A stretch of 64,000 nt of DNA. Source: Pelosinus propionicus DSM 13327 (GTDB lineage: Bacteria; Bacillota; Negativicutes; DSM-13327). Shown here one piece after another: positions 19,647 through 53,632 of the stretch. Both the position numbers and the translations under genes were made by a program. The stretch covers positions 62,001 to 126,000 of the forward strand of contig NZ_FOTS01000008.1 of NCBI RefSeq assembly GCF_900114615.1. The letters are read 5' to 3'. Numbering within the stretch: position 1 is the stretch's first letter; each line of letters starts with the position of its first letter. Under the pieces are notes generated by a model. That model had not been told where the DNA came from. It worked only from the letters and a program-made list of their open reading frames with translations, and did not search any database.

Positions 19647-19718
19647 GTTAACCACAGAGGCACAGAGAACACGGAGAAAAATTTATTTCTTTGTGCTCTC
19701 TGTGCCTCTGTGGCTAAG
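19647..19718. repeat. Dispersed palindromic repeat, copy 1
   Basis: GTTAACCACAGAGGCACAGAG at 19647-19667 (one base beyond the core) faces its near-complement ending TGTGCCTCTGTGGCTAA at 19718, forming a long imperfect hairpin 14 bases after larA. Related copies lie at 30596-30680, 41672-41765 and, shortened, 51082-51122. It may also end larA transcription. Confidence 0.8.
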
Positions 19719-25211: not shown

Positions 25212-25270
25212 ACGATAAATAATAGAGGGAATCCTTAATGGAGATAAGGATTCCCTCTATTATTTATCGT
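25212..25270 (-). terminator. Terminator with 26-bp perfect arms after the HD-GYP gene
   Basis: Arms 25212-25237 and 25245-25270 are exact complements around 7 bases. On the minus strand the stem begins at the stop codon of the HD-GYP gene and is followed by seven T residues; on the plus strand it lies just after ptb without a T-run. Confidence 0.9.
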
Positions 25271-26337
25271 TAGATATGGGAGGTACTCACAATGGAAAGA
25301 TGAGGATTTTCTGCTAGGTTAATTTCTATAGGAGGAGAATAGGAGGTGCCATCGGGGTGAGTCATCATTCGAATTCGCGGCTGTCGAGGAGTATTTTCAC
25401 ATAATGAGACTACAATAGCCTTTTCCCCTGTATTTAGCGAAACTTCCATTCCTGGAAAATATAAGGCCATTCTGGATAAGAATATGTTGCCGAAATGTTC
25501 GTCAAAAGCAGTTCCTAAACCAGAATGAATAATAGTATATGCCTCTTCTAATTTCATCGCTTTTCGGTATGGCCGGCACCCTGTAATCGCCTCATATACA
25601 TCGGTAATTGCCAACAAGCGAGCATAATTTAGTATTTCTTCGCCCTGAAGCCCTCGAGGATATCCTGTACCATCTACTTTCTCATGATGCTGCCATGCCA
25701 TATGAGCGACAAGGCTTGACAGCTCCCAGCGCTTTTTCACCAATAAATTAAATCCGGACTGAGGGTGCTGTTTAATGATTCCAAATTCTTTTTCTGTCAA
25801 TCGGTCTGGTTTATTAATAATTCTTTTGTCTACTTTCATTTTACCAACATCATGGAGCAGAGCTCCACAGGTGATTTCTTTAATTTGAGGAATAGTAAAA
25901 TCACAAGAACGAGCTAACAAAGCTGTATAAACAGCACAATTCAAGGAGTGATCTAGGGTGTAGTCATCATGAGTTGCAATCCCAGTAAGCTGGATGCTTA
26001 TGGAGGGTTGAATAATTAATTCTTCAACAATAGCAGAGGCAATATTGCTAATGGAATCGATAGAAAATGTTTCTTTATTATGAATTTTTTCCATGGTAGA
26101 GCTTAGTATAGATAATGCTCTTTGTTGAGTTTCTATGGAAAGGTATTCTGGAATTGCAATATCTGCATAGCTTTCGTCGTGAATAAAGAGAGTTTTTACT
26201 TTCAACCTTCGTAATTTGTGAAGGTACACTTCCGTCAGCCTAACTCCTGATGCCAGCAAGATGTGTCCTTTTCTGCTGTAAAGATTTCGTGCTAATATCA
26301 TACCTGGGTGTACTTCTGTTAACCTAATCTGTCGCAA
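25270..26337 (-). CDS. HD-GYP domain c-di-GMP phosphodiesterase
   Basis: A 355-residue protein with an N-terminal PGMILARNLYSRKGHILLASGVRLTE module and a complete HD-GYP domain: HD at 162-163 (LLHDVGK), His191, HH at 217-218 and DGTGYP at 222-227. All metal ligands and the GYP motif are canonical, so an active phosphodiesterase is likely. There is no sensor or receiver domain, suggesting control at expression level, and indeed a c-di-GMP-I riboswitch with terminator lies in its leader. The start is TTG 26337 with AGGAG 8 bases upstream. Confidence 0.88.
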   Translation of the reverse strand: MRQIRLTEVHPGMILARNLYSRKGHILLASGVRLTEVYLHKLRRLKVKTLFIHDESYADIAIPEYLSIETQQRALSILSSTMEKIHNKETFSIDSISNIASAIVEELIIQPSISIQLTGIATHDDYTLDHSLNCAVYTALLARSCDFTIPQIKEITCGALLHDVGKMKVDKRIINKPDRLTEKEFGIIKQHPQSGFNLLVKKRWELSSLVAHMAWQHHEKVDGTGYPRGLQGEEILNYARLLAITDVYEAITGCRPYRKAMKLEEAYTIIHSGLGTAFDEHFGNIFLSRMALYFPGMEVSLNTGEKAIVVSLCENTPRQPRIRMMTHPDGTSYSPPIEINLAENPHLSIVSTSHI

Positions 26338-26443: not shown

Positions 26444-26461
26444 CTTTTCATCATATGCAGC

Positions 26462-26532
26462 GTGGCGATCATAGATTATAAATCCGTAGACCCTATAGCT
26501 TTGCGTCCTTACCTTTCGGTAAGTTTGCCAAT
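26462..26532 (-). ncRNA. c-di-GMP-I (GEMM-I) riboswitch
   Basis: On the minus strand the core reads GGCAAAC, a stem capped by the GAAA tetraloop (TTACC-GAAA-GGTAA), then GGACGCAAAGC, a second stem and GATCGCCA closing P1. The GGCAAAC and GACGCAAAGC segments and the GNRA tetraloop are the defining GEMM-I features. Confidence 0.93.
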
Positions 26533-26726
26533 ATAAAATTTAAGAAAACAGGAAAATTGTAGTATTAAAATAGAATGATACCACAGAAAAAGAGCGAATT
26601 ATGTCATAATTTGAAGAAAAATAAAAAATAATTTTATTAAAAGTTTTATGTAGAGATTTAGCATATCTTTTAAAGTATCATCATAGAAGTAAATAGTGGG
26701 TTTCTAACGTACGGGAGGCGGCTGTT

Positions 26727-29723: not shown

Positions 29724-29752
29724 TTGACAGAATTGATTTTATATGATAGTTT
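29724..29752 (+). promoter_or_regulatory. Predicted promoter of the tandem cobalamin leaders
   Basis: TTGACA at 29724-29729, then after 17 bases a weak TAGTTT (29747-29752); TATGAT occurs closer. The -35 position relative to the aptamer matches that of the other cobalamin leaders. Confidence 0.45.
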
Positions 29753-29790
29753 AAGTAGTAAGTTACAAAAAGCACAATCTAATAAAAAGA

Positions 29791-29985
29791 AGTAGGTGCC
29801 CGCGAGGGCTTAATAGGGAAGTCCGGTTAAAGGCCGGCGCGGTCCCGCCACTGTATTGGTGAGCAACCTCAAGATATGCCACTGGGATGAATATCCTGGG
29901 AAGGTTTGAGCGCGCGATGATCCAGAGCCAGGAGAACTGCCTATTTGACAATCACCGTTTGACCTGCGAGCGATGGGGAGGGGAT
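29791..29985 (+). ncRNA. Cobalamin riboswitch 1 (first of a tandem pair)
   Basis: The B12-element core is complete: GGTGCC, GGGCTTAATAGGGAA, paired CCGG arms, GCGGTCCCGCCACTGT, GCCACTGGG, CTGGGAAGG and the B12 box GAGCCAGGAGAACTGCC. It is followed by a conserved CAATCACCG and TTGACCTGCGAG block and GATGGGGAGGGG. It is near-identical to the next aptamer. Confidence 0.95.
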
Positions 29986-30047
29986 TATTTGAGCCGTCTA
30001 TGTTATAGGCTATTTTTAGGGTTGCCTTTTTCCCGAAAATAGTTTGC

Positions 30048-30117
30048 AAAATGGATTTCTCATATAGTCAAATCTTCGGCGCTGCGCTAGGTTGACTACA
30101 TGAGAAATCCATTTTTA
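30048..30117 (+). terminator. Terminator behind cobalamin riboswitch 1
   Basis: A 24-nt arm starting at 30048 (AAAATGGATTTCTCAT onward) pairs with 30092-30115 through a long loop, ending in a T-run. Confidence 0.8.
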
Positions 30118-30233
30118 ATTTATTTAAGATTGGATAAAATTATATTTTTGTAAGGTGGTGAAATATGCAGTTCGTTCTATTTCGGCTTACATTGAATTTT
30201 ACGTAGCATACTGTTAATAAAAATTATATAGGA
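30118..30233 (+). other. Spacer between the two cobalamin riboswitches with a 13-codon ORF
   Basis: The only reading frame with a ribosome site (AAGGTGG at about 30152) is ATG 30165 to TAG 30206, encoding 13 residues (MQFVLFRLTLNFT). It may be a leader peptide or the stub of a lost gene. Nothing else is visible. Confidence 0.35.
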
Positions 30234-30422
30234 ATAGGTGCCCGAAAGGGCTTAATAGGGAAGTTCGGTTAAAAGCCGACGCGGTCCCGCCACTGTATTG
30301 GTGAGCAATCTCAAGATATGCCACTGGGGATGAATTTTCCTGGGAAGGTTTGAGTGCGCGATGATCCAGAGCCAGGAGAACTGCCTATTTGACAATCACC
30401 GTTTGACCTGCGAGCGATGGGG
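30234..30422 (+). ncRNA. Cobalamin riboswitch 2 (second of a tandem pair)
   Basis: The same B12-element core as in riboswitch 1 with a handful of changes, several compensatory (for example TTCGG with CCGAC-type pairing replacing TCCGG/GGCCGG). The B12 box GAGCCAGGAGAACTGCC and the downstream TTGACCTGCGAG block are identical. Confidence 0.95.
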
Positions 30423-30492
30423 AGGAGATTATTTGAGCCGTCTATGTTATAGGCTTTTTCAGCTTGCCTTTCTGCTGAAAATAGTTATGGAT

Positions 30493-30560
30493 AATGGATT
30501 TCTCTTATAATCATCTCTCTGCCACGTGGCTGAGGTGATAATAAGAGAAATCTATTTTTT
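30493..30560 (+). terminator. Terminator behind cobalamin riboswitch 2
   Basis: Arm 30493-30518 (AATGGATTTCTCTTATA onward) pairs with 30533-30555 (ATAAGAGAAATCTATT), tip GCCACGTGGC, followed by six T residues. Confidence 0.85.
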
Positions 30561-30595
30561 ATTTTAGAATCAGAATTAATTAAGTTTAGGGAACA

Positions 30596-30680
30596 TTGAA
30601 CACAGAGTTGCACCAGAGCACAGAAGTTTTTAGCCCTAATTAGATTTCTTCTCAGTGTTCTCCGTGCCTCTGTGGTTCGG
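30596..30680. repeat. Dispersed palindromic repeat, copy 2
   Basis: TTGAACACAGAGTTGCACCAGAGCA (in two parts) on the left faces CAGTGTTCTCCGTGCC and TCTGTGGTTCGG on the right. The right arm is close to that of copy 1. It lies between the second cobalamin terminator and the sigma-54 activator gene. Confidence 0.7.
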
Positions 30681-30767
30681 TTAAGGTTTTTCGGCGGCAT
30701 AAGTAGTCATTGATGCTAACAAGCAGGACCTTGAATTGTCGGTGAAGGTAGAAGGGAGGATGGATCT

Positions 30768-32189
30768 ATGACCTCAAATATATGTCAAATCGGTAGTGAA
30801 AAGATGGCTGCTGATCTAAGTTCTGTACAGGAACTGTCGAAAGAATTGGAAGCCATTATCAGCTCTTCTTATGATGGAATGTTTATTACCGATGGCAAGG
30901 GGATTGTTTTGCGGGTAAATGAAGCTTATGAGCGCATTACAGGCATTCAGGCTCGTGAAATACTAGGCAGAAATATGAGACATTTAATTTCAGAAGGGTA
31001 TTATGATGAATCAGTGACCTTGCTAGTCATAGAAAAGCGTACAACAATTACGATTAATCAAATCGTAAAGGGTGGCCATAAAATATTAGTTACTGGAAAT
31101 CCCATATTTGATGAACAAGGTGAGCTGTTTCGTGTCGTAACCAATGTACGTGATATTACTGAATTGTCCGATTTGCAAAATGAACTTATCCAAACGCAAG
31201 AACAGACTTTAAAGTATAAAGCAGAGTTATTTCATCTGCGGGCATTGCAAATTCAAGATAAAGATCTTATTTATCGCAGCAGTAAGATGATGCAGATTAT
31301 TGAACTAGCAATAAAAGTGTCTGGAGTGGATTCCACGGTTTTAATTCATGGTGAATCAGGGACTGGTAAAGAAGTGATTGCAAAGTGTATTCACAAATAT
31401 GGCAAAGGAGCCGATCGGCCTTTCATTCAAATTAATTGTGCAGCCATTCCGGAACAACTTTTAGAATCAGAGCTGTTTGGTTATGAGGAGGGGGCTTTTA
31501 CCGGAGCCAAAAAAGAAGGAAAAGTGGGACTCTTTGAGTTGGCACAAAACGGTACCTTATTTTTAGATGAAATTGGAGATCTGCCATTATTACTGCAGAT
31601 TAAACTGCTTAGAGCGATACAAGAAAAAAGTTTTATGCGGGTGGGGGGAACGAAAATCATTTCCATAAATGCGAGAATCATTGCTGCCACCCATAGAAAC
31701 CTTATTCAGATGATCAAAGATATGACTTTTCGTGAAGATTTGTATTATCGATTGGCAGTAGTACCCATTTATTTGCCACCGCTCCGGGAGCGTAAAGAAG
31801 ATATCCCATTATTAATTATGCACTTTATGAAGAAGTTTAATCAACGTTTTCAATATAACAAAAAAATAGCATCACCAGTGATCTGTAAACTAGCTGATTA
31901 TTGGTGGCCGGGTAATGTACGTGAATTGGAAAATGTCATTGAACGCATGATTGTGATGGCACCTCATGAGGAAATTACAATGGATTTATTGCCGGAATCT
32001 ATTTTGCATAGAACTTTTTTACCTAAGCAAGGAACCAAGCTAAAGGACGCAGTAGCGCAAACGGAAGTCTATGTATTAAATCAAGCCTACAAGGAATATG
32101 GCTGCTGGCAGAAAGTATCTGATGTATTGGGCATGAATCGAGCAACCATATTTCGTAAAGTTGCGAAATATGGTATAGGCAAAAAATAA
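30768..32189 (+). CDS. PAS-domain sigma-54-dependent transcriptional activator
   Basis: A 473-residue enhancer-binding protein: PAS sensor domain (about residues 25-135), a coiled linker, an AAA+ domain with Walker A GESGTGKE (195-202), the sigma-54 contact motif GAFTGA (242-247) and Walker B LFLDE (264-268), and a C-terminal Fis-type helix-turn-helix (WQKVSDVLGMNRATIFRKV). It activates sigma-54 promoters in response to a small-molecule signal sensed by PAS. A -24/-12 promoter lies 164 bases past its stop in front of the acyl-CoA dehydrogenase operon, which is the obvious target. AAGGGAGG precedes the ATG. Two cobalamin riboswitches sit upstream. Confidence 0.9.
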   Translation: MTSNICQIGSEKMAADLSSVQELSKELEAIISSSYDGMFITDGKGIVLRVNEAYERITGIQAREILGRNMRHLISEGYYDESVTLLVIEKRTTITINQIVKGGHKILVTGNPIFDEQGELFRVVTNVRDITELSDLQNELIQTQEQTLKYKAELFHLRALQIQDKDLIYRSSKMMQIIELAIKVSGVDSTVLIHGESGTGKEVIAKCIHKYGKGADRPFIQINCAAIPEQLLESELFGYEEGAFTGAKKEGKVGLFELAQNGTLFLDEIGDLPLLLQIKLLRAIQEKSFMRVGGTKIISINARIIAATHRNLIQMIKDMTFREDLYYRLAVVPIYLPPLRERKEDIPLLIMHFMKKFNQRFQYNKKIASPVICKLADYWWPGNVRELENVIERMIVMAPHEEITMDLLPESILHRTFLPKQGTKLKDAVAQTEVYVLNQAYKEYGCWQKVSDVLGMNRATIFRKVAKYGIGKK

Positions 32190-32352: not shown

Positions 32353-32368
32353 TGGCATAAAAATTGCA
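32353..32368 (+). promoter_or_regulatory. Sigma-54 (-24/-12) promoter
   Basis: TGGCATAAAAATTGCA matches the TGGCAYR-N4-TTGCW consensus with exact GG-to-GC spacing. It lies 44 bases before the NifU-like gene and just downstream of the sigma-54 activator gene. A TTTGATCAAA palindrome at 32286-32295 might be part of an enhancer site. Confidence 0.88.
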
Positions 32369-32412: not shown

Positions 32413-32721
32413 ATGAAAAGAACTACAGTAGAAGAAAAGATTCGACCAATATTAGATGCGTATCGTGCCAATGTAGAATTAGTGGAAGTGACTCGAGATA
32501 AATTTCTCAAAGTAAGAGTCACAGGAACCTGCGTTGCATGTCATGGTGCCCAGGAAAGAATTGTGGAAATGATGGAAGAAGCTTATAAAGAAGTCGTATG
32601 TCCGGATATAAAAGGAGTCATATTGGTGCAGCCCACCAATAATCATTCGATGGGACAATTGGTGAACTTTACTCGCAAAGATGCGACGAAACGTTGCCGA
32701 TATGCAGTGTCAATCAGATGA
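32413..32721 (+). CDS. NifU C-terminal-like (Nfu) domain protein 1
   Basis: A 102-residue protein made of one Nfu domain: EEKIRPILDAYRANVELVEV, then VRVTGTCVACHGAQERIVEMMEEAYKEV with the CxxC pair (CVAC) that holds a transient iron-sulfur cluster, and a 25-residue extension rich in Lys/Arg. In the usual domain the segment reads GGDVEL; here RANVEL. It is first gene of the sigma-54 operon and may deliver clusters to a neighbouring iron-sulfur enzyme such as the 4-hydroxybutyryl-CoA dehydratase. A second such protein is encoded at 40001. Confidence 0.75.
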   Translation: MKRTTVEEKIRPILDAYRANVELVEVTRDKFLKVRVTGTCVACHGAQERIVEMMEEAYKEVVCPDIKGVILVQPTNNHSMGQLVNFTRKDATKRCRYAVSIR

Positions 32722-32800: not shown

Positions 32801-33943
32801 ATGTTTACTTTTACTGAAGAACAAGAAATGCTGCGAAAAGTAATTCGGGAGTTTGTTGAGGCGGAGGTAGCACCAAAGGCTCAGGAATGGGATGAAGCAA
32901 ATCATTGTCCTGTTGAACTTTTTCCAATGCTAGGTGAGATGGGGATTGTAGGAACATTTGTACCGGAAGAATACGGTGGAGCAGGATTGGGGTTTGTGGA
33001 AAGAAGTATCTGTCTGGAAGAGCTGGCCAGGCATTCCGCAGGCCTGGCAATTACAGTCATGGCACATCAGCTATGTATGGGCGGAATATTGAATTTTGGT
33101 TCAGAGGAGCAAAAGAAAAAGTACTTGCCTGACTTAGCCACTGGGAAGAAAATAGGCTCTTTATCGTTAACAGAGGCTACTGGAGGCTCTAACTTCATGG
33201 GGCAAAAATCAACTGGTGAATATAAAGACTGGCAATGGGTAATCAATGGCAGAAAATGTTTTATCACGAATTCTCATTTGGCAGATGTTGATCTTTGGAC
33301 TGTCATTACCGGTCAAAATGAAAAGGGCAAGCCCATCATGACTGCATTTATTATTGACAAAGATACTCCAGGTCACACTGCTGGCCGTACAGAGCATAAG
33401 TTAGGGTTATGTTCTTCCAACACCGGCGATGTCAGTTGTGTGAATGTGAAACTTTCACCGCAGCAGATGCTCAGTCAGGAAGGCGATGGTCCGAAAATTG
33501 CATTATCAACGATACAGGAAGTAGGGCGTGCTGGCATGAGTGCTATATGCCTTGGAATACTGCGGGGCTGCCTGGAAGAGTCCGTCAAATTCTCCAATGA
33601 ACGTATCATTTATGGCAAGCCATTAAATAAACTCATGAACATTCAGTTTACAATTGCAGAAAATAAATTGGATTATGAATCAGCAAAATTGCTGACGTAT
33701 CGGGCGGCGTCCATGAAAGATAAGGGATTGCTCTGCGCATGTGAATTTGCTCTTGCAAAATATGCTGGTAACGAAGGGGCAATTCGGGCGGCTAAACGAA
33801 CCATTGACATGATGGGCGGCTATGGTGTAATCAATGAATACCCAATCGGCAGATTTTTACGTGATACCTTAGCTGGCTCTACTGCTGGCGGTACTTCTGA
33901 TATTTTGAAGGTGGTTATTGCTGCAGAAACACTTAAGAGATAA
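32801..33943 (+). CDS. Acyl-CoA dehydrogenase (possible crotonyl-CoA reductase/butyryl-CoA dehydrogenase)
   Basis: A 380-residue flavoenzyme with FTEEQEMLRKVIREFVEAEVAP, the FAD-binding SLTEATGGSNFM and FITNS segments, and GGYGVINEYPIGRFLRD. The usual catalytic-base motif YEGTSE of short-chain enzymes reads AGGTSD here, so the Glu is missing; long-chain and isovaleryl-CoA dehydrogenases also lack it there and use another Glu. With etfB and etfA directly downstream it probably reduces crotonyl-CoA made by the 4-hydroxybutyrate genes, or oxidises a related acyl-CoA. The ribosome site (AAGGACTG) is weak and the spacing long. Confidence 0.8.
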   Translation: MFTFTEEQEMLRKVIREFVEAEVAPKAQEWDEANHCPVELFPMLGEMGIVGTFVPEEYGGAGLGFVERSICLEELARHSAGLAITVMAHQLCMGGILNFGSEEQKKKYLPDLATGKKIGSLSLTEATGGSNFMGQKSTGEYKDWQWVINGRKCFITNSHLADVDLWTVITGQNEKGKPIMTAFIIDKDTPGHTAGRTEHKLGLCSSNTGDVSCVNVKLSPQQMLSQEGDGPKIALSTIQEVGRAGMSAICLGILRGCLEESVKFSNERIIYGKPLNKLMNIQFTIAENKLDYESAKLLTYRAASMKDKGLLCACEFALAKYAGNEGAIRAAKRTIDMMGGYGVINEYPIGRFLRDTLAGSTAGGTSDILKVVIAAETLKR

Positions 33944-33971: not shown

Positions 33972-34802
33972 GTGAAGTTAAATATTGCAGTATGCATCAA
34001 ATCGGTGCCGGACCCTGAATGGTATGAAAAAATTACGATTGATATAAAAACTAAAACAATTACAAGAAAGGGTATTCCTAGCATTATTAATCCTGTAGAT
34101 AAGAATGCTTTGGAAGCGGCGCTGCAGTTAAAAGAACAATTTGGCGGAAAAGTCACTGTAGTATGCATGGCACCTCCAGGGGCCACAAATGAGCTTTATG
34201 AAGCAATGGCTATGGGGGCTGATGAAGCGGCATTATTATCTGACTTGGCTTTTGCGGGCGCTGATACTCTTGCTACCTCCTATACCCTTGCCCAAGGATT
34301 AAACAAATTAGGAAAATTTGATTTGGTTCTTACTGGTACCGAAAGTGCAGATGGAGCTACTGCTCAGGTACCAGCTCAGCTTGCCGAATGGCTGAAAATA
34401 CCTCATCTGTGGAATGTAAAAGAGTTTACATTCGCTACGGAGCAAGAACTTCATGCCAAAGTAAAAATGGATGACGCAGTAGGAGAATATGTGATCCAAC
34501 TGCCGGCTTTATTAGCGGTTTCAAGAGAAATAAATAAACCGCGCTACACCACTGCTATGGGCGTAATGAAAGCGAGAAAAAAGACGCTGACAATCTTGAA
34601 TAAAAATGATATAGATGTCAATAAAAGCCTGATTGGTCAGGTAGGTTCTCCTACTTGGTCTGGAGATATTTCTATTCCTTCCCTAGCCCGCAAGGGGCAA
34701 GAGCTAATAGGGACACCAGAAGAAATAGCAACACAGCTAATTGCCAAATTGCGAGCTGCTGGTATTAACCCAGCTAAGAGAAGGGAGGGGGATGGTAAAT
34801 GA
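33972..34802 (+). CDS. etfB: Electron transfer flavoprotein subunit beta
   Basis: A 276-residue EtfB with the N-terminal NIAVCIKSVPDPEW, VDKNALEAALQLKE, and the nucleotide-binding LVLTGTESADGATAQVPAQLAEWL; it pairs with EtfA to accept electrons from the acyl-CoA dehydrogenase. Bifurcating ETFs carry a second FAD in EtfB where other ETFs bind AMP; I cannot settle which applies. Start is GTG with AGGAGG 7 bases before it. The stop overlaps the etfA start (ATGA). Confidence 0.9.
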   Translation: MKLNIAVCIKSVPDPEWYEKITIDIKTKTITRKGIPSIINPVDKNALEAALQLKEQFGGKVTVVCMAPPGATNELYEAMAMGADEAALLSDLAFAGADTLATSYTLAQGLNKLGKFDLVLTGTESADGATAQVPAQLAEWLKIPHLWNVKEFTFATEQELHAKVKMDDAVGEYVIQLPALLAVSREINKPRYTTAMGVMKARKKTLTILNKNDIDVNKSLIGQVGSPTWSGDISIPSLARKGQELIGTPEEIATQLIAKLRAAGINPAKRREGDGK

Positions 34803-35818
34803 CGCATCAGGGAATTTGGGTAGTAGCAGAACAGACAGTTAGCGGTATCAGCAGAGTTAGTTTTGAACTATTAGCCAAAGCTAGAGAATTAAAAGAGCAA
34901 GGGGGATTACAAGCCCCTGTAACTGCTGTTCTTCTTGGTGAAAACCTAGATGATTATTATAGTGCCAAGCTGATGGAAGCAGGTGCTGAAGCAATCATTT
35001 TGGTAGATCATCCGGTTTTGCGATATTTCCAAAATGAGACTTACGCTGCGGTGCTAAAAAGCTTAGTGGAAGAAAGACAGCCTAGTATTATTTTAATGGG
35101 GGCAACGGCTGCAGGTTCTGATTTGGCGCCTACTCTTGGAGCAAAGTTACACACAGGAGTATCGGCTCATTGTGTTGATATGCGGCTAAATGAAGAAGGA
35201 CACCTTGTCGCTGTTGTTCCAGCCTTTGGCGGAAAGGTACTAGGAGATATTCTTTGCACCAATTTTCGACCGCAGATTGCGACGGTCAGACCTGGCATTT
35301 TAGGCAAGGTCATCTGTTTTATGCATAAGCAATGCCCTGTGGAAAGATTTGATATAGCAGATATCCTTGCTCAAGATCAAAGTCGTGTCAAAGCTCTTGG
35401 CATTACCTATGAGGAAATGAAAGGGGTACCATTGGAAGAGGCTGAGATTGTGGTGGCAGGTGGGTTTGGCATAGAAAGTAAGGAAATCTGGCAGCAGCTT
35501 GAAACTCTTGCAGCAGTGCTGGGGGGAGCTGTGGGTTGTACCCGGCCGCCACTTGATGAAGGGTGGGCCAAGGAGAGCCAAATGATTGGTACTAGTGGAA
35601 AATCAATACGTCCAAAAGTATATATTGGCATGGGGATTTCTGGGGCTACCCATCATATATGTGGTATGAAGGATGCAGGACTTGTAATCAGTATTAATAA
35701 GGATGAAAAGTCACCAATATTCGATGTTTCCGATATTCGCATAACCGCTGATGCGGCAACTATTCTTCCACTGTTAATTGAAGGATTACAAAAGAATGAA
35801 GATGATGTAATCTGCTGA
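34799..35818 (+). CDS. etfA: Electron transfer flavoprotein subunit alpha
   Basis: A 339-residue EtfA. The N-terminal half (IWVVAEQTVSGISRVSFELLAKARELKEQ) is the partner-binding domain, and the C-terminal FAD domain shows VVAGGFGIESKE, GCTRPPLDEGW, GTSGKSIRPKVYIGMGISGATHH and SINKDEKSPIFDVSDI in order. No ferredoxin-like extension is present. Overlaps etfB by four bases, so the two are translationally coupled and co-regulated by the sigma-54 promoter. Confidence 0.92.
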   Translation: MTHQGIWVVAEQTVSGISRVSFELLAKARELKEQGGLQAPVTAVLLGENLDDYYSAKLMEAGAEAIILVDHPVLRYFQNETYAAVLKSLVEERQPSIILMGATAAGSDLAPTLGAKLHTGVSAHCVDMRLNEEGHLVAVVPAFGGKVLGDILCTNFRPQIATVRPGILGKVICFMHKQCPVERFDIADILAQDQSRVKALGITYEEMKGVPLEEAEIVVAGGFGIESKEIWQQLETLAAVLGGAVGCTRPPLDEGWAKESQMIGTSGKSIRPKVYIGMGISGATHHICGMKDAGLVISINKDEKSPIFDVSDIRITADAATILPLLIEGLQKNEDDVIC

Positions 35819-36016: not shown

Positions 36017-37381
36017 ATGACAGAACAAACATTGCTGCAAAAAATTGTTAGTCAAGCACAGCAATCCCAAAAAGAAATGGAGAAGTGTAGTCAGGTAGAA
36101 GTTGACCAGTTTGTCAAGGCAATTGGCAAGGTCGTTTTTGATAATGCAGAGCTATTAGCTCAAGAAGCAGTAGAAGAAACGGGTATGGGTGTATATGAAG
36201 ACAAAGTGGCCAAAAATAAAGGGAAATCCAAAATGATTTGGCTGAGTCTTAAAAATAAAAAATCAGTAGGTATTATAAAGGAAGAAAAGGCAAAAGGACT
36301 GCTTTACGTAGCAAAGCCCAAAGGTGTTATTGCTGCCATTACTCCAACCACCAATCCGGTGGTCACGCCTATGTGCAATGCTATGTTTGCAATAAAAGGA
36401 CGAAACTCTATCATTGTAGCACCTCATCCGCGAGCCAAGAAATGCTCTGCCCACACAGTAAAACTAATGAATGAAGCGTTGCGTAAGTTAGGGGCACCGG
36501 AACATCTAATTCAAGTCATCGAAGAACCAACAATGGAGCTGACCCAAGAATTGATGCGTGCGGCAGATGTTGTTGTTGCGACTGGTGGTATGGGATTGGT
36601 AAAGGCAGCTTATGCCAGCGGTAAACCAGCCTACGGAGTTGGGGCAGGAAATGTGCAAGTTATCGTAGATCGAGAGTATGATTATGATCAAGCAGCCCAG
36701 GATATTATCGCAGGACGAAAATTTGATAATGGTATTATTTGTTCTGGCGAGCAGTGTGTGATTACACCAATTGAAGAGCATGCAGCCATTATGGAAGCAT
36801 TCTCCAAGCACGGAGGCCATTATATTAATAATCCAGAAGAGATTGAGCGCTTCCGGCAAGTCATGTTTCCAGAAGGAAAGATAAATACTCAGTTGGTTGG
36901 GCAATCCGTACAGTATATTGCCAATATGGCTGGGGTCAAAGTACCGGATACAGCAAAAATTGTTATTTTACAAGCTATAGGTAAGGGAAAACAAGATGTA
37001 CTTTGCAAAGAAAAGATGTTTCCCTATATGGTTACCCTTAGCTATAACACGTTTGAAGAAGCGCTTGAAATTGCTAAGACCAATCTATATTACGAAGGGG
37101 CGGGGCATACCGCAGCTGTTCATTCACAAAATACAGAGCATATCAAACAAGCGGGAAAGTCATTGCCCATCAGTCGTTTGGTCGTAAATCAACCTTCATC
37201 TACCGGAGCTGGCGGCAGCATTTATAATGGTTTTAACCCGACTACAACCTTGGGATGCGGTTCTTGGGGCAATAATAGCATATCGGAAAATTTGAGTTAT
37301 AAACACCTCATCAATGTATCGCGAATCGGTTTTTTTAATCGTGAAGCTGTGCTTCCCAGTGAAGTAGCAATTTGGAATTAA
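36017..37381 (+). CDS. sucD: CoA-acylating aldehyde dehydrogenase, probably succinate-semialdehyde dehydrogenase
   Basis: A 454-residue acylating aldehyde dehydrogenase. VIAAITPTTNPVVTP binds NAD and CoA, GGMGLVKAAYASGKPAYGVGAGN is the Rossmann part, and the catalytic Cys242 lies in FDNGIICSGEQ. It belongs to the AdhE-N/SucD/EutE family. The three genes that follow (4-hydroxybutyrate dehydrogenase, 4-hydroxybutyryl-CoA dehydratase, CoA transferase) make succinyl-CoA reduction to succinate semialdehyde the best assignment, as in Clostridium kluyveri. AAAGGAGG precedes the ATG. Only the context, not the sequence, excludes acetaldehyde or butyraldehyde as substrate. Confidence 0.82.
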   Translation: MTEQTLLQKIVSQAQQSQKEMEKCSQVEVDQFVKAIGKVVFDNAELLAQEAVEETGMGVYEDKVAKNKGKSKMIWLSLKNKKSVGIIKEEKAKGLLYVAKPKGVIAAITPTTNPVVTPMCNAMFAIKGRNSIIVAPHPRAKKCSAHTVKLMNEALRKLGAPEHLIQVIEEPTMELTQELMRAADVVVATGGMGLVKAAYASGKPAYGVGAGNVQVIVDREYDYDQAAQDIIAGRKFDNGIICSGEQCVITPIEEHAAIMEAFSKHGGHYINNPEEIERFRQVMFPEGKINTQLVGQSVQYIANMAGVKVPDTAKIVILQAIGKGKQDVLCKEKMFPYMVTLSYNTFEEALEIAKTNLYYEGAGHTAAVHSQNTEHIKQAGKSLPISRLVVNQPSSTGAGGSIYNGFNPTTTLGCGSWGNNSISENLSYKHLINVSRIGFFNREAVLPSEVAIWN

Positions 37382-37398
37382 GAAAAGGAGAGGATGAT

Positions 37399-38514
37399 AT
37401 GGTTCCCTTTCGGGTTGTCCCGCAAATAGCAATTTATCAAAAATTTGAGCATTTTGCCGATGCTTTTCATATCGGTGAAGGTGATCTTCTGATTACCAAT
37501 GAGTATATCTACAACGCGGGCATGAAAAACGTGAATTATACAGGAAAAATTTTATTTCAGGAACGGTTTGGTACTGGTGAGCCATCCAATGTCATGATGG
37601 ATATGCTGTTTGGTGAGGCACGTAAGTATCAATATAACCGTGTCATTGCAGTGGGTGGAGGAACCGTCATTGACATGGCTAAGCTGTTAGCCTTAGGTGG
37701 CAATGGAACGGCATCAGATTATTTTAACGGTCTCGTACCTCTGGTAAAAGAAAAAGAACTGGTATTGATTCCAACGACTTGCGGTACTGGCAGTGAAATG
37801 ACTAATATTTCTATTCTGGAAATCAAAGAACAACATACGAAAAAAGGATTGGCAGTAGATGCTTTGTATGCGGATTATTCTGTGCTGATTCCAGACTTGT
37901 TGAAGAGTCTTCCATTTCAATTTTTTGCTACTAGCTCGATGGATGCGCTGATTCACGCTGTAGAATCTTTTGTAGCCCCTAATTCTAATCAACTGACTGA
38001 AGTATTCAGCAGTAAGGCTATGGAAATGATCATTGATGGTTATCAGCAAATGATTCAAAAGGGATCTGAGCAGCGTCATGAAATGATTGAAACATTTTTG
38101 CTGGCAAGTACCTATGCTGGTATTGCCTTTGGCAACACTGGCGTGGGAGCGGTTCATGCGATGTCCTACCCCTTAGGCGGTGTTTATCACGTTCCTCACG
38201 GTGAAGCAAATCAGCAGCTTTTCACAGAAGTATTTCGAACTTATAAAAAAGTAAAGCCAATGGGTAAGATTGAAAGTCTGGAAATTCATTTGGCCGAAAT
38301 CTTGGGAACATCCTTAGTTCGGGTTTGGGATGAACTAGAATGTGTATTGGAAAAGATTTTACCTCGCAAACCTTTGAAGGAATATGGCATGAAACGCGAT
38401 GAAATTGAAAGCTTTGCTGATAGTGTATTAGAGAATCAGCAGCGGTTATTAAAAAATAATTATGTGGCATTATCAAAGCAGCAAATGGTTGCTATCTATA
38501 CTCGGTTATATTAA
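37399..38514 (+). CDS. 4hbD: 4-hydroxybutyrate dehydrogenase (iron-containing alcohol dehydrogenase family)
   Basis: A 371-residue group III alcohol dehydrogenase. VIAVGGGTVIDMAKLLAL is the nucleotide motif, PTTCGTGSEMTN the second, and the metal site is formed by Asp/His residues of SSMDALIHAVESFVAPNSN, AVHAMSYPLGGVYHVPHGEAN. This proteins' family reduces succinate semialdehyde to 4-hydroxybutyrate with NADH. Start is ATG 37399, preceded by AAAAGGAGAGG; an in-frame upstream start overlapping sucD lacks a site. It follows sucD by 17 bases. Confidence 0.88.
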   Translation: MVPFRVVPQIAIYQKFEHFADAFHIGEGDLLITNEYIYNAGMKNVNYTGKILFQERFGTGEPSNVMMDMLFGEARKYQYNRVIAVGGGTVIDMAKLLALGGNGTASDYFNGLVPLVKEKELVLIPTTCGTGSEMTNISILEIKEQHTKKGLAVDALYADYSVLIPDLLKSLPFQFFATSSMDALIHAVESFVAPNSNQLTEVFSSKAMEMIIDGYQQMIQKGSEQRHEMIETFLLASTYAGIAFGNTGVGAVHAMSYPLGGVYHVPHGEANQQLFTEVFRTYKKVKPMGKIESLEIHLAEILGTSLVRVWDELECVLEKILPRKPLKEYGMKRDEIESFADSVLENQQRLLKNNYVALSKQQMVAIYTRLY

Positions 38515-38550: not shown

Positions 38551-40011
38551 ATGGCAATGAAAACACCAGAGCAATATGAGGAAAGTTTGCGCAATTTGAA
38601 TTTGAAAGTGTATCTACAGGGGGAATTAGTAGAAAATCCTGTGGATCATCCTGTAATTCGACCATCCTTAAATTCTGTAAAGAAAACCTATGAACTGGCA
38701 CAAATGCCAGAATACCAAGAGTTGATGACGGCAACATCTCACTTAACAGGTGAGAAGGTTAATCGCTTTTGTCACTTGCATCAAAGTACTGAGGATTTAG
38801 TGAAAAAAGTGAAAATGCAGAGGCTTTTAGGACAAAAAACAGCTGCATGCTTTCAACGCTGTGTGGGCATGGATGCAATTAATGCGGTCGATAGCGTAAC
38901 CTTTGAAATGGATCAAAAACTAGGAACAAACTATCACGATCGCTTTAATTCATTTCTGCAGAGAATGCAGGAGGAGGATTGGACGGTTGATGGTGCCATG
39001 ACCGACCCCAAAGGAGATCGAAGCCTTTCCCCCAGCAAACAGGCTGATCCGGACTTGTTCCTCCATGTGGTACAAAAAAGAGCCGATGGCATTATCGTCA
39101 GCGGTGCGAAAGCCCATCAAACAGGAGCAATTAATTCTCATTGGATCTTAGTCATGCCAACCATTGCTATGGGGAAAGAGGATGCTGATTATGCTGTATC
39201 CTTTGCTGCACCTGCAGATGCAAAAGGTGTGTTCTATATTTATGGACGGCAATCCTGTGATACCCGCAAATTGGAGGGCGGAGATATTGATGTTGGTAAT
39301 AAAGAATTTGGCGGACATGAAGCATTGATGGTTTTTGATAGGGTTTTCATTCCATGGGATGACGTATTCATGTGCGGTGAATATGAATTTAGCGGCAGTT
39401 TAGTCGAACGCTTTGCAGGCTATCATCGGCAAAGCTATGGTGGCTGCAAAGTTGGCGTTGGGGATGTACTGATTGGTGCAGCTGCCTTGGCGGTAGAATA
39501 CAATGGTGTTGAAAAAGCTTCCCATATTAAAGATAAATTAATCGAAATGATTCATTTAAATGAAACATTATATTCCTGCGGCATCGCCTGCTCTGCTGAA
39601 GGTAAAAAGACAGCATCTGGCAACTATATTATTGATTTGCTCTTAGCCAACGTATGCAAACAGAATATTACTCGACTTCCTTATGAAATTGCCCGTCTGG
39701 CAGAAGACATTGCCGGTGGACTTATGGTTACTATGCCATCAGAACAAGATCTGCGTCATCCGGAGATTGGCAAAGTAGTAGAAAAATATTTTAAAGGCGT
39801 GGCCAATATTCCTATGGAAAGCCGAATGCGGATCTTACGTCTAATTGAAAACTTAACACTGGGAACGGCGGCGGTTGGATATCGAACAGAATCCATGCAT
39901 GGCGCAGGGTCACCTCAAGCTCAAAGAGTAATGATTGCCCGACAGGGGAACTTAGCTGCCAAGAAGGAATTAGCAAAAGTCATTGCCGGTATCCCCCAAA
40001 ATGCAAAATAA
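38551..40011 (+). CDS. abfD: 4-hydroxybutyryl-CoA dehydratase / vinylacetyl-CoA isomerase
   Basis: A 486-residue member of the 4-hydroxyphenylacetate-3-hydroxylase family. Cys100 and Cys104 (ACFQRC) together with His292 and Cys299 (HRQSYGGC) correspond to the four ligands of the [4Fe-4S] cluster in the clostridial dehydratase (Cys99, Cys103, His292, Cys299), and this ligand set separates it from the flavin hydroxylases. It dehydrates 4-hydroxybutyryl-CoA to crotonyl-CoA by a radical mechanism and is oxygen sensitive. AGGAGG precedes the ATG. The next gene, an Nfu-type protein, overlaps its end. Confidence 0.95.
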   Translation: MAMKTPEQYEESLRNLNLKVYLQGELVENPVDHPVIRPSLNSVKKTYELAQMPEYQELMTATSHLTGEKVNRFCHLHQSTEDLVKKVKMQRLLGQKTAACFQRCVGMDAINAVDSVTFEMDQKLGTNYHDRFNSFLQRMQEEDWTVDGAMTDPKGDRSLSPSKQADPDLFLHVVQKRADGIIVSGAKAHQTGAINSHWILVMPTIAMGKEDADYAVSFAAPADAKGVFYIYGRQSCDTRKLEGGDIDVGNKEFGGHEALMVFDRVFIPWDDVFMCGEYEFSGSLVERFAGYHRQSYGGCKVGVGDVLIGAAALAVEYNGVEKASHIKDKLIEMIHLNETLYSCGIACSAEGKKTASGNYIIDLLLANVCKQNITRLPYEIARLAEDIAGGLMVTMPSEQDLRHPEIGKVVEKYFKGVANIPMESRMRILRLIENLTLGTAAVGYRTESMHGAGSPQAQRVMIARQGNLAAKKELAKVIAGIPQNAK

Positions 40012-40312
40012 TAAAGAACGATTTGCTGAGTTAGAGATAATGATTCAAAATGAAATTCGACCATTTTTAAAGAGTCATGATGGTGATATTCAATTGGTAA
40101 ACTGGGAAGATAATGGAACGGTCACGTTACGATTACTAGGAGCTTGTGCAAATTGTCCGAGCTCTGAGCAAACCTTATCTTCCCTAGTTGAGAAGAAGTT
40201 AAAGAACTGTTGTCCAGATGTAAAACAAGTTAACTTGGTACAACAAGTCAGCGAGACATTAATTAAACAGGCATTGCAGATTTTACGCAGAGAAAAAACT
40301 AGCGACGAATAA
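40001..40312 (+). CDS. NifU C-terminal-like (Nfu) domain protein 2
   Basis: A 103-residue Nfu-type protein: NEIRPFLKSHDGDIQLVNWEDNGTVTLRLLGACANCPSSEQTLSSLVEKKLK, with the cluster-binding pair CANC. It overlaps the abfD stop by 11 bases and lacks a clear ribosome site, so translation is probably coupled to abfD; ATG 40040 is a less likely alternative start. Position inside the operon suggests it loads or repairs the AbfD [4Fe-4S] cluster, an inference from context. Confidence 0.78.
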   Translation: MQNNKERFAELEIMIQNEIRPFLKSHDGDIQLVNWEDNGTVTLRLLGACANCPSSEQTLSSLVEKKLKNCCPDVKQVNLVQQVSETLIKQALQILRREKTSDE

Positions 40313-40328
40313 ACGAGCGGAATGAGTG

Positions 40329-41630
40329 ATGAGTATGAAAGAGTGGCAAACAACGTATAGACATAAATTGGTCTCGGCATTTGAGGCTGTTCAAAAAATT
40401 AAATCTGGTGACCGAGTGGTGGTAGGGCATGCCTGCGGTGAACCCCAGGCACTGGTATATGCCTTAACTGAGCGTTATCATGAACTTTGTGATGTGGAAA
40501 TCACTCATATGGTAGCAATGGGAAACTCTCCTTATGCTCAGCCGGGTATGGAGAACAGTTTTCGCCACAATGCCTTATTTGTGGGGCGTTCTACACGCCA
40601 GGCGATTGCAGAAGGCCGGGCTGATTATACACCTTGTTTTTTTTCGGAAATTCCGCGATTGTTTAAGGAAAAAATACTGCCGGTGCAGGTTGTATTACTG
40701 CAGATTACACCACCGGATGAACAGGGCTTTTGTAGTTATGGTATATCAGCAGATTATACCGTAGCTGCCGCCCAAAGTGCTGATATCGTTATTGCTCAGG
40801 TCAATCGGCGACTGCCCCGTACTCAAGGAGCAAAAATTCATCTAAACCATGTTGATTATTTAGTCGAGCAGGACGAAGAAATTGTAGAATTACTGCCGGG
40901 CAAGATTGGTGAAGTGGAACGAAGGATTGGCCGGCAAATTGCAGAAATGGTGCCAGATGGAGCTACATTGCAACTTGGAATTGGTGCGATTCCTGATGCA
41001 GTACTTCTCTTTTTGCAGGGCAAAAAAGATTTGGGAATTCATTCTGAAATGTTCTCCGATGGGGTAGTTGACTTAGTAAATGCTGGTGTGATCACCAATT
41101 GTAGAAAAAGCCAGAATCCCAATGTTTTCGTAGCTACTTTTTTAATGGGGACCAGGAAACTGTATGATTTTATAGATCAAAACCCGCAGGTGCAGTTGCA
41201 TCCAGCTGATTATGTAAATGATCCATATATCATTGGCAAGCATGAATTGATGATCTCCATTAATTCGGCTTTGCAAGTAGATTTAATGGGGCAAGTTAAT
41301 GCAGAGATGATCGGTTCTAACCAATTTAGCGGTATCGGAGGGCAGGTTGATTTTATTCGTGGTGCCAGTAGGTCGTTGGGAGGCAAATCCATTATTGCAC
41401 TACCGACGACTGCTGCTAAGGGAACTGTTTCTCGAATTGTAGCTGAACTGGATCAAGGATCTGCCGTCTCAACTAGTCGTAATGATGTGCAATACGTAGT
41501 TACAGAATATGGGGCAGTGGATTTGCGCGGCAAGACATTACGGCAAAGAGCAGCAGCCATGATCGAAATTGCCCATCCTGATTTTAGACCCAATTTGCGT
41601 GAGCAGGCAAAAATGAAAGGATTGCTATAA
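40329..41630 (+). CDS. cat2: 4-hydroxybutyrate CoA-transferase (acetyl-CoA dependent)
   Basis: A 433-residue family I CoA transferase. LQLGIGAIPDAVL, GIHSEMFSDGVVDLVNAG (its Glu is the CoA-ester nucleophile) and IGGQVDFIRGASRSLGGKSIIALPTTA are the family motifs. It activates 4-hydroxybutyrate to its CoA ester using acetyl-CoA or butyryl-CoA. It completes the succinyl-CoA to crotonyl-CoA set. Start is uncertain among GTG 40326, ATG 40329 and ATG 40335; the weak GAGCGGA site favours the later two. Confidence 0.9.
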   Translation: MSMKEWQTTYRHKLVSAFEAVQKIKSGDRVVVGHACGEPQALVYALTERYHELCDVEITHMVAMGNSPYAQPGMENSFRHNALFVGRSTRQAIAEGRADYTPCFFSEIPRLFKEKILPVQVVLLQITPPDEQGFCSYGISADYTVAAAQSADIVIAQVNRRLPRTQGAKIHLNHVDYLVEQDEEIVELLPGKIGEVERRIGRQIAEMVPDGATLQLGIGAIPDAVLLFLQGKKDLGIHSEMFSDGVVDLVNAGVITNCRKSQNPNVFVATFLMGTRKLYDFIDQNPQVQLHPADYVNDPYIIGKHELMISINSALQVDLMGQVNAEMIGSNQFSGIGGQVDFIRGASRSLGGKSIIALPTTAAKGTVSRIVAELDQGSAVSTSRNDVQYVVTEYGAVDLRGKTLRQRAAAMIEIAHPDFRPNLREQAKMKGLL

Positions 41631-44962: not shown

Positions 44963-45000
44963 ATCAAAGAGATTGGCTGTCACAATTATATATTGCTGGT

Positions 45001-45186
45001 ATAGGTGCCCTTCGGGGCTTAATAGGGAAGTTCGGTTCAATGCCGACACGGTCCCGCCACTGTAATGAGGAGCAAGCCCATGTTATGCCACTGAGATGAT
45101 GTCTTGGGAAGGTTTGGGGGAGCAATGATCCAGAGTCAGGAGAACTGCCTATATAACAATCACCGATATGACCTGCGAGAGATAGG
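45001..45186 (+). ncRNA. Cobalamin riboswitch 3
   Basis: Complete B12 element: ATAGGTGCCC, GGGGCTTAATAGGGAA, GCCGACACGGTCCCGCCACTGT (in two parts), GCCACTGAG, TTGGGAAGG and B12 box AGTCAGGAGAACTGCC, followed by CAATCACCG and TGACCTGCGAGAGAT. It precedes an ABC transporter operon. Confidence 0.95.
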
Positions 45187-45283: not shown

Positions 45284-46225
45284 TTGAAAAAAAAAGAGCT
45301 CTTACATCGCTTAGTGCAGATGCTTATTACTCTTTTCGGTGTGAGTTTGCTGACATTTTCACTGATGTATCTGTCACCGGGGGATCCGGTAGAGATGCTG
45401 CTAGAGGTAGCTGATACCATTGTTTCAGAAGAAACAATTGCCGAGACACGGGCACAGCTTGGGTTGGACAAACCGTTTCATGTACAGTATTTCCGTTGGC
45501 TTGCAGGTGTCTTACAGGGAGACATGGGCATGTCGTATTCGGCAAAAATGCCGGTAGCTGACCGTCTCTGGCAAAGCCTGCCGGGGACGATGGTACTTGC
45601 TGCATCAGCGACGGTAACGATGCTTCTGATCTCGGTTCCATGCGGGATATTGTCGGCGGTATATCGAAACCGCCCGCTGGATTACCTTATTCGCGGCATT
45701 TCATTTTTGGGCGTATCTATGCCAAGTTTTTGGGTAGGACTCATTTTGTTGTATGTTTTAGGGCTGAAGCTGAGATTGTTCCCGATAGCGGGTGGAGAGG
45801 TATCATTTGATCGGATGGTGCTTCCTACGCTGACGCTGGCCATTGCGATGGCGGCCAAGTACACAAGGCAGGTGCGTACAGCGGTTTTAGAGGAACTGGG
45901 ACAAGAATATATCACAGGGGCACGAATACGGGGATTTCCCATGCACAAAATCCTCTGGCGCCATGTCCTGCCAAACGCATGCCTGCCGCTTATTACGCTT
46001 TTAGGCCTGCAAATTGGCTGGCTCCTGGGCGGCGTAGCTGTCATTGAGATGGTTTTTTCCTGGCCCGGACTTGGGAAAATGGCCGTACATGCCATTGAGA
46101 TGCGTGATTATCCTTTGGTACAGGGCTTTGTCCTTTGGATTGCTGTGTTGTATATGGGAATCAATCTGCTGGTCGATATTTCCTATACGTATCTTGACCC
46201 GCGGCTGAAAAAAGGGGGATGCTGA
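45284..46225 (+). CDS. Nik/Opp-type ABC transporter permease (NikB/DppB-like)
   Basis: A 313-residue permease with six membrane helices and the DppB-family N-terminus (FGVSLLTFSLMYLSPGDPVEMLL), a GMSYSAKMPVADRLWQSLPGT segment and the EAA loop (ELGQEYITGARIRGFPMHKILWRHVLPNA, read in parts). It starts at TTG with GGAGAGGG upstream. First gene of a five-gene transporter operon led by a cobalamin riboswitch, so the cargo is probably cobalt, a cobalt chelate or a corrinoid precursor; the family also handles nickel and peptides. Codons are more GC-rich than in neighbouring genes. Confidence 0.88.
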   Translation: MKKKELLHRLVQMLITLFGVSLLTFSLMYLSPGDPVEMLLEVADTIVSEETIAETRAQLGLDKPFHVQYFRWLAGVLQGDMGMSYSAKMPVADRLWQSLPGTMVLAASATVTMLLISVPCGILSAVYRNRPLDYLIRGISFLGVSMPSFWVGLILLYVLGLKLRLFPIAGGEVSFDRMVLPTLTLAIAMAAKYTRQVRTAVLEELGQEYITGARIRGFPMHKILWRHVLPNACLPLITLLGLQIGWLLGGVAVIEMVFSWPGLGKMAVHAIEMRDYPLVQGFVLWIAVLYMGINLLVDISYTYLDPRLKKGGC

Positions 46226-47047
46226 GTGGGAAGTTTGACAAAGGATAAGTTCTTGTTCTGGCTTTATACATGTTTTGTTCTTTTGATTCTCGGTTTTGCA
46301 ATTTTTGCACCATGGCTAGCTCCTTACGATCCGTATGATGCGGTAATGCGGCAGTCCCTGCAGGCGCCATCTGATGAGCACCTGTTCGGCACGGATAAGC
46401 TAGGGCGGGATTGTCTGTCTCGTATTATTTATGGAGCGCGCACTTCGCTGATGATGACACTGTCGCTGGTTGCCGTTATAACGATAGTGGGGACTTTTAT
46501 CGGTGTGTTGGCAGGTTACATGGGTGGAAAGGTAGATACCGTACTTATGCGCATTGTCGATATGATGCTGGCTTTTCCAGGAATTGTGCTGGCGATTGCC
46601 ATTGCCGGCATGCTAGGCGGCAATATCGTCAATGCAATTTTAGCACTGGCGGCGGTCAGCTGGACTAAGTATGCCCGTTTGGGGCGCAGCCTCACGTTAA
46701 AGCTGCGTCAGCGTGATTTTATTGCCGCGGCTGTAACAAGCGGATCAAGACCGCTCCATATCCTATGGCGCCATATTTTGCCCAATATCCTGCCGACAAT
46801 TGTTGTGACGGCGGCGATGGATATCGGTACAATGATCATGGAATTAGCTGGGTTGTCCTTTTTGGGTTTTGGTGCGCAGCCTCCGACGCCGGAATGGGGT
46901 CTTATGCTTAATGAAGGAAGACAGCATATCCAGACAGCTCCTTGGCTGATGCTTTATCCGGGAGCTGCCATCCTGATTGTGGTAACCATTTTTAATCTAT
47001 GGGGAGACAGCCTGCGCGATATCATGGATCCGCAGCGGGCAAATTAA
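46226..47047 (+). CDS. Nik/Opp-type ABC transporter permease (NikC/DppC-like)
   Basis: A 273-residue permease, second membrane subunit. It shows the DppC-family start (FAIFAPWLAPYDPYDAVMRQSLQAPS), HLFGTDKLGRDCLSRIIYGARTSL, and the EAA loop (RDFIAAAVTSGSRPLHILWRHILPN). The GTG start follows the previous stop codon with no gap, so translation is coupled. It forms the channel with the preceding permease. Confidence 0.88.
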   Translation: MGSLTKDKFLFWLYTCFVLLILGFAIFAPWLAPYDPYDAVMRQSLQAPSDEHLFGTDKLGRDCLSRIIYGARTSLMMTLSLVAVITIVGTFIGVLAGYMGGKVDTVLMRIVDMMLAFPGIVLAIAIAGMLGGNIVNAILALAAVSWTKYARLGRSLTLKLRQRDFIAAAVTSGSRPLHILWRHILPNILPTIVVTAAMDIGTMIMELAGLSFLGFGAQPPTPEWGLMLNEGRQHIQTAPWLMLYPGAAILIVVTIFNLWGDSLRDIMDPQRAN

Positions 47048-47078
47048 ATAAAAGACAGATGAGAAAGGATGAGATTTC

Positions 47079-48650: not shown

Positions 48651-48670
48651 TTTTACAAAGGAGAACTGAA

Positions 48671-52877: not shown

Positions 52878-52913
52878 GAATCTTATAACATATAAAAAAT
52901 TCATATGAATGGT

Positions 52914-53105
52914 ATAGGTGCCCTTTTGGGCTTAATAGGGAAGTCCGGTTAAATTCCGGCGCGGTCCCGCCACTGTAATGAGGAGCAAACCCATTTTTAT
53001 GCCACTGGAATCATTAGGTTCTGGGAAGGTATGGGAAAGCAATGATTCAGAGTCAGGAGAACTGCCTATATAGCAATCACCGATTGACCTGCGAGAGATG
53101 GGGAG
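52914..53105 (+). ncRNA. Cobalamin riboswitch 4
   Basis: Complete B12 element: ATAGGTGCCC, GGGCTTAATAGGGAA, TCCGG/CCGGC arms, GCGGTCCCGCCACTGT, GCCACTGGA, CTGGGAAGG and B12 box AGTCAGGAGAACTGCC, then CAATCACCG and TTGACCTGCGAGAGATGGGGAGG (in two parts). It precedes the DnaA-N-like gene and the methylmalonyl-CoA mutase genes. Confidence 0.95.
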
Positions 53106-53583: not shown

Positions 53584-53632
53584 TAATATTTTAATAATAC
53601 TAGAGAATGACAATGAAATGGATGGTGAAAGT

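Follow-up and report, generated by a model that had tools for sequence, protein, structure and literature searches.

A tandem cobalamin riboswitch leader related to that of a transporter gene precedes a sigma-54 activator and a predicted B12-independent butyrate operon in Pelosinus propionicus

The 64,000-nucleotide stretch of Pelosinus propionicus DSM 13327 analyzed here (the window; contig NZ_FOTS01000008.1, positions 62,001 to 126,000) carries two cobalamin riboswitch aptamers of Rfam family RF00174 in one leader on the + strand: unit 1 at 29777-29958 (105.3 bits, E 2.6e-25) and unit 2 at 30219-30402 (103.7 bits, E 7.2e-25). Both exceed the family gathering score of 31.5 bits and cover the model in full (positions 1-189). 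Two tandem cobalamin aptamers, each followed by a long terminator, had been predicted at this site from the DNA letters, and the predicted coordinates and main statements proved right; the description of the aptamers as near-identical captures their high likeness but is slightly generous, as the units are 90.7% identical across the aptamer columns and 78.8% across the expression platform. Each unit has its own expression platform, with a predicted terminator consisting of a hairpin and T run at 30050-30116 (terminator 1, −29.6 kcal/mol) and 30493-30559 (terminator 2, −31.9 kcal/mol), both on the + strand and supported by covariation as well as folding. A generic terminator scan listed neither of the two, probably because their loops and stems lie beyond the limits of the scan, and the stems were therefore folded directly.

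The leader opens with a putative promoter identified by consensus on the + strand (TTGACA at 29724-29729, a 17-nt spacer, an extended −10 TGA and TAGTTT at 29747-29752). This is the one conserved promoter of the tandem; minimal promoter-like matches at 9 of 12 positions begin at 29959 and 30403, inside the units, in a consensus scan. From the second riboswitch (30432) to the activator start, the consensus scan found no sigma-70-like site with at least 9 of 12 matches and hence no second promoter for the activator; a weak promoter may lie within the ∼208 nt between terminator 2 and the activator. That interval also holds one copy (30598-30690) of an intergenic repeat with CTCCGTGCCTCTGTGGTT, which has three matches in the window versus 0.01 expected (another is at 19650-19715); the copy is shortened or absent in a near relative, G003. 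Between the units there is only a 13-codon ORF on the + strand (MQFVLFRLTLNFT, 30165-30206, with AAGGTGGTG upstream), in agreement with the original prediction of such an ORF with a ribosome site. A similar 13-codon ORF (MRFAVFKVKLNFT) is found in the cognate leader of one genus-mate, and four of the six cognate BtuF-type leaders known from the genus (see below) have lost the start codon, so the ORF is probably dispensable and was set aside as a conserved leader peptide.

No B12 gene follows the leader, as had been noted. The next gene (30768-32189, + strand) encodes a 473-residue sigma-54-dependent activator with PAS, AAA+ (PF00158, E 7e-69) and HTH_50 domains, orthologs of which adjoin abfD and abfT in relatives; its nearest match in a named record, 99% identical, is from Pelosinus fermentans UBA6563. 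The AAA+ sigma-54 domain and HTH of the protein are accompanied by a candidate −24/−12 promoter at its target (TGGCATAAAAATTGCA, 32353-32368, + strand). The motif, for which 0.25 chance matches are expected in the whole window, follows the activator at an almost constant offset in each of the eight loci compared. The genes that follow, all on the + strand, encode a NifU-like protein (32413-32721, PF01106), an acyl-CoA dehydrogenase that may act as butyryl-CoA dehydrogenase (32801-33943, PF02771/PF00441), EtfB (33972-34802) and EtfA (34799-35818), both ORFs named from sequence and gene order, SucD, the CoA-acylating succinate-semialdehyde dehydrogenase (36017-37381, best PDB match 8CEI over the full length, E 2e-195), a presumptive 4-hydroxybutyrate dehydrogenase of the Fe-ADH family (37372-38514, best PDB match 30SM Cvir-Hbd2, E 4e-117), the 4-hydroxybutyryl-CoA dehydratase AbfD (38551-40011, best PDB match 1U8V, E 7e-232), a second NifU-like protein (39983-40312, PF01106) whose longest-ORF start overlaps abfD, and the 4-hydroxybutyrate CoA-transferase AbfT (40326-41630, best PDB match 3EH7, E 3e-150). 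These assignments support a complete B12-independent route from succinyl-CoA to butyryl-CoA, and no B12-dependent enzyme was found among the operon proteins identified. The 4-hydroxybutyrate/butyrate route anticipated behind the activator thus has a full predicted enzyme set and a conserved candidate sigma-54 promoter. We propose that the activator, once its PAS domain is also signalled, would switch on the promoter at 32353, which would drive expression of SucD, 4-hydroxybutyrate dehydrogenase, AbfD, AbfT, the acyl-CoA dehydrogenase and EtfBA.

Both expression platforms contain a predicted switching strand, GATTATTTGAGCCGTCTAT, at 29983-30001 in unit 1 and 30427-30445 in unit 2 (+ strand), which would form the 3′ side of P13 and the 5′ side of an antiterminator. 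In unit 1 this strand pairs with 30051-30069 (−13.4 kcal/mol, with 4 of 1000 dinucleotide shuffles as good) and in unit 2 with 30494-30512 (−12.5 kcal/mol, 1 of 1000 shuffles as good). The helices P13, terminator and antiterminator, the last of which sets the 3′ strand of P13 and the GTCTAT after it opposite the terminator's 5′ arm, were tested in one alignment of 15 homologous units. P13, which with L13 forms the regulatory hairpin after the riboswitch core, is paired in 100% of cells and has one pair with a compensatory change. The terminator helix is paired in 98.4% of cells, and six of its pairs are changed on both sides (27 cells), a number of double changes reached in 0 of 500 shuffles. 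The antiterminator is paired in 88.5% of cells versus 35-48% in slid versions; single-side changes keep the pairing, two positions are often mismatched, and compensatory double changes are absent from the 15 units, so its support comes from kept pairing and the shuffles. RNA folded up to the terminator loop adopts the long antiterminator in nearly all units.

Terminator and antiterminator appear to be mutually exclusive across the 15 units, and the two platforms read as serial OFF switches. As P13 and the antiterminator have a strand in common, a ligand-stabilized P13 should favor termination, and both the structure and the behavior of known cobalamin riboswitches point to the OFF direction. 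When corrinoid is bound, an L5-L13 kissing loop would keep P13 closed and GATTATTTGAGCCGTCTAT locked up, and the terminator would form; when corrinoid is absent, GATTATTTGAGCCGTCTAT would instead pair with the terminator's 5′ arm, and transcription would continue. Because RNA polymerase would have to pass both units, the leader would act as a two-step ('pseudo-cooperative') attenuator, possibly with a steeper response, and the activator would be made only at low corrinoid. The suggestion of serial B12 sensing ahead of the activator is well matched by these predicted platforms.

The block as a whole is matched best by the leader of a gene for a BtuF-like substrate-binding protein elsewhere in the same genome (C69:2296-2930). 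Window positions 29742-30558 align with this leader over 836 columns at 81.3% identity; the alignment extends from the promoter region through terminator 2 and keeps the linker and the two units in register. In full, the homologous block starts with the promoter (TTGACA, 29724) and ends with the second terminator, at about 30558. Leaders of this type open with TTGACA-N17-TATTTT, with TGG ahead of the second hexamer. The protein is called BtuF-like from its location in a cobalamin cluster and from weak matches to periplasmic binding protein models, none of them over the cut-off. The BtuF-type tandem leader is present in six of eight genus genomes (81-93% identity), where it lies ahead of the BtuF-like gene of the cobalamin cluster. 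Beyond these leaders, the matches listed from 200 Negativicutes genomes include no full-length match other than the copy at the activator locus. A tree of the platforms groups activator unit 2 with unit 2 of the BtuF leaders and places unit 1 in an intermediate position, and sequence exchange between units 1 and 2 of the activator leader is probable. Beyond terminator 2 there is neither homology to the BtuF-type leader nor a transporter remnant, which argues that the block was copied as a unit onto the activator and is not local transporter debris. A local tandem duplication was rejected, as the C69 leader contains counterparts of the linker and of each terminator. Because the BtuF-type leader is the more widely distributed of the two, we infer that copying ran from the BtuF locus to the activator, a step in which the promoter and two-riboswitch leader of a cobalamin-cluster transporter gene would have moved as a block.

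The 5.4-Mb draft genome contains 21 cobalamin riboswitches, several of them tandem and including one set of three, and the other seven genus genomes contain 6 to 21 each; tandems are therefore a habit of the genus and not peculiar to the activator locus. Several further riboswitches were seen in passing. Within the window, a cobalamin riboswitch at 44986-45166 precedes a peptide/nickel-type ABC transporter operon (45284-50429) that may serve to take up cobalt or corrinoids, and a c-di-GMP-I riboswitch at 26453-26539 (− strand) lies ahead of a gene for an HD-GYP-like protein (25270-26337, − strand). A run of three cobalamin riboswitches lies upstream of an OmpH-like gene and a gene for a 1456-residue protein, possibly CobN (L060:2370-3435, reverse complement coordinates); another, at L063:1792-1973, has no same-strand ORF of more than 67 residues for more than 2 kb and may be an orphan or a regulatory RNA. 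The genome G007 carries a tandem of two M-box magnesium riboswitches (L029:1515-1993).

A cross-genome comparison gave a negative answer to whether the activator always lies downstream of cobalamin riboswitches. None was found at the more distant activator orthologs checked, in G002, G005, G007, Anaerospora and further loci (41-74% identity), and the near relative G003 has one riboswitch unit at the activator. The G003 unit comes close to a chimera of the two window units with a single crossover, having unit-1 alleles to alignment column 121 and mostly unit-2 alleles after it. It arose either by deletion through recombination between the units or by assembly collapse; G003 is a metagenome assembly, and the two units have a 70-nt exact stretch in common. 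Among the loci checked, only the two genomes in which the activator stands ahead of SucD and acyl-CoA genes have the riboswitch. The riboswitch-free loci examined have a short operon consisting of a transporter or hydrolase-like gene, abfD, nifU and abfT, and the two riboswitch-bearing loci add acyl-CoA dehydrogenase, EtfBA and SucD. The longer operon is found in G007 as well; the short contig that carries it begins inside the acyl-CoA dehydrogenase gene, so that the part upstream is missing. The SucD copy of G007, in this fragmented assembly (G007:C228:2891-4252, L099) is 96% identical to that of the window and has one internal TAA.

The same window encodes a B12-dependent counterpart acting on the same intermediate. 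The small and large subunits of methylmalonyl-CoA mutase (mutAB, 53549-57996, + strand) were assigned by profiles, the small subunit matching TIGR00641 over the cut-off with TIGR00642 as best model and the large subunit matching NF006944 at 1308 bits, and they are preceded by a cobalamin riboswitch of their own (52899-53083, + strand, 110.1 bits). By known chemistry, succinyl-CoA is the common substrate of the mutase and the operon route. In Xylanibacter, a propionate former, lack of B12 leads to accumulation of succinate (PMC11575231), which makes an alternative sink plausible. In a reporter, the mutA riboswitch of Veillonella parvula responds to corrinoids (PMC9600662); given this case and the riboswitch ahead of mutAB, low B12 may raise both branches, and whether the mutAB riboswitch is an ON or an OFF switch bears on the entire interpretation.

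A cobalamin leader also precedes a second sigma-54 activator (C84), next to an ornithine operon that encodes B12-dependent OraE. The riboswitch-led activator (L090:442-2173) is divergent from the OraE ornithine-degradation operon (L090:2574-12469), and this arrangement is also seen in G001 (L091). The leader of this second activator, together with its promoter, is an 81% copy of the one that a TonB receptor has at C97. Leaders of the type found at uptake genes thus stand before activators at least twice, once by a B12-dependent pathway. The second case, next to an ornithine aminomutase operon, misfits the notion that B12 shortage turns on B12-independent routes.

The explanation that we favor, and consider fairly probable, is that a copied tandem OFF leader governs the activator and, at low corrinoid, diverts succinyl-CoA to B12-independent butyrate. 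Succinyl-CoA would be drawn away from the B12-dependent methylmalonyl-CoA mutase route to propionate and into the butyrate route. The sequence itself shows the anatomy of the leader, the copied block, the conserved alternative pairings, the gene content of the operon and the sigma-54 promoter; the response to ligand, the switching direction, the steeper response, the PAS signal and the physiological purpose are inferred from it. That B12 shortage opens such a bypass is plausible, if unproven; the arrangement is known from two genomes, one with a single unit, and the bypass is an attractive reading that is consistent with them, not a demonstrated one. We put forward more tentatively, and at somewhat below an even chance, a wider proposal: that this is a corrinoid-controlled fermentation switch whose serial attenuator came, with its promoter, from a transporter gene, that the same genome did so twice (the second time at the activator of the ornithine operon), and that promoter-riboswitch leaders move as modules onto activator genes. 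If this is true, B12 status would act through an activator on whether propionate or butyrate is the fermentation product, in organisms that synthesize corrinoids themselves, and the growth of a riboswitch regulon could be studied directly through a traceable leader copied, promoter included, between regulons.

A functional leader could instead serve a general low-corrinoid response, such as feedback that raises catabolic capacity, with no propionate-to-butyrate bypass; the presence of cobalamin riboswitches before mutAB and before the activator beside oraSE, among the 21 in the genome, speaks for such a response, but the operon lacks a B12-dependent enzyme and, among the loci checked, the riboswitch occurs solely in lineages with the SucD branch behind the activator, and we regard this as rather unlikely. 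The leader might also be a pasted, nearly neutral copy, with the riboswitches yielding short terminated RNAs and the activator expressed from its own downstream promoter or by read-through. That only two genomes carry the leader, one of them keeping a single unit, and that a repeat element separates terminator 2 from the activator in the window would suit a neutral copy; however, at ∼81% identity to the source, the copy still has intact aptamers, P13 helices, terminators and antiterminator strands, no good downstream promoter was found, and two terminators would block read-through from upstream, which makes neutrality improbable. Least credible, to the point of being very nearly discounted, is the other original suggestion that the units are remnants of a transporter gene lost after local tandem duplication: the source leader does serve a BtuF-type transporter gene, but no transporter fragment follows the end of homology, and the tandem is older than the locus, being ancestral to the copy, with unit 2 grouping with unit 2 of the source.

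The favored reading, a copied tandem attenuator acting on the activator, has partial precedents. Most of the known targets of B12 riboswitches belong to B12 synthesis, uptake or cobalt transport or are single isozymes, and B12-independent alternatives form a recognized class among them (PMC3766115). Our literature search returned no paper on a sense-strand cobalamin leader of a sigma-54 activator, a result that speaks only weakly for its absence. For tandem AdoCbl riboswitches with separate terminators there are descriptions by Sherlock et al. 2022 (PMC9481103) and Barrick and Breaker 2007 (PMC2258182), which already count 26 AdoCbl doublets, less than 1% of AdoCbl leaders. The tandem AdoCbl architecture itself is thus known and rare; what is new is the target, an enhancer-binding activator, together with evidence that such leaders have been captured twice. 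The pseudo-cooperative tandem AdoCbl riboswitches resemble the present leader in having two same-class aptamers with their own terminators as OFF switches in series. That set is an architecture class, in whose descriptions we found neither a sigma-54 activator as the controlled gene nor the copying of a whole leader from a transporter locus. Control of metE and other isozymes by SAM-I/AdoCbl riboswitches, in which B12 represses a B12-independent alternative (PMC3766115, PMC9600662), may be a further parallel; metE-type control acts on the enzyme gene itself, whereas here an activator is controlled and the alternative is a whole pathway from a common intermediate. In V. parvula, also a member of the Negativicutes, a riboswitch stands at the methylmalonyl-CoA mutase gene (PMC9600662), as at 52899 in the window, but unlike the tandem leader it is a single unit directly before a B12-dependent enzyme. 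A likeness in the kind of target is seen in the PocR riboswitch of Listeria monocytogenes, a cobalamin riboswitch that acts on a transcription factor (PMC9943018, PMC11575231); there the riboswitch drives an antisense RNA and the target pathway is expressed with B12, whereas here the riboswitches lie in the sense leader of the activator.
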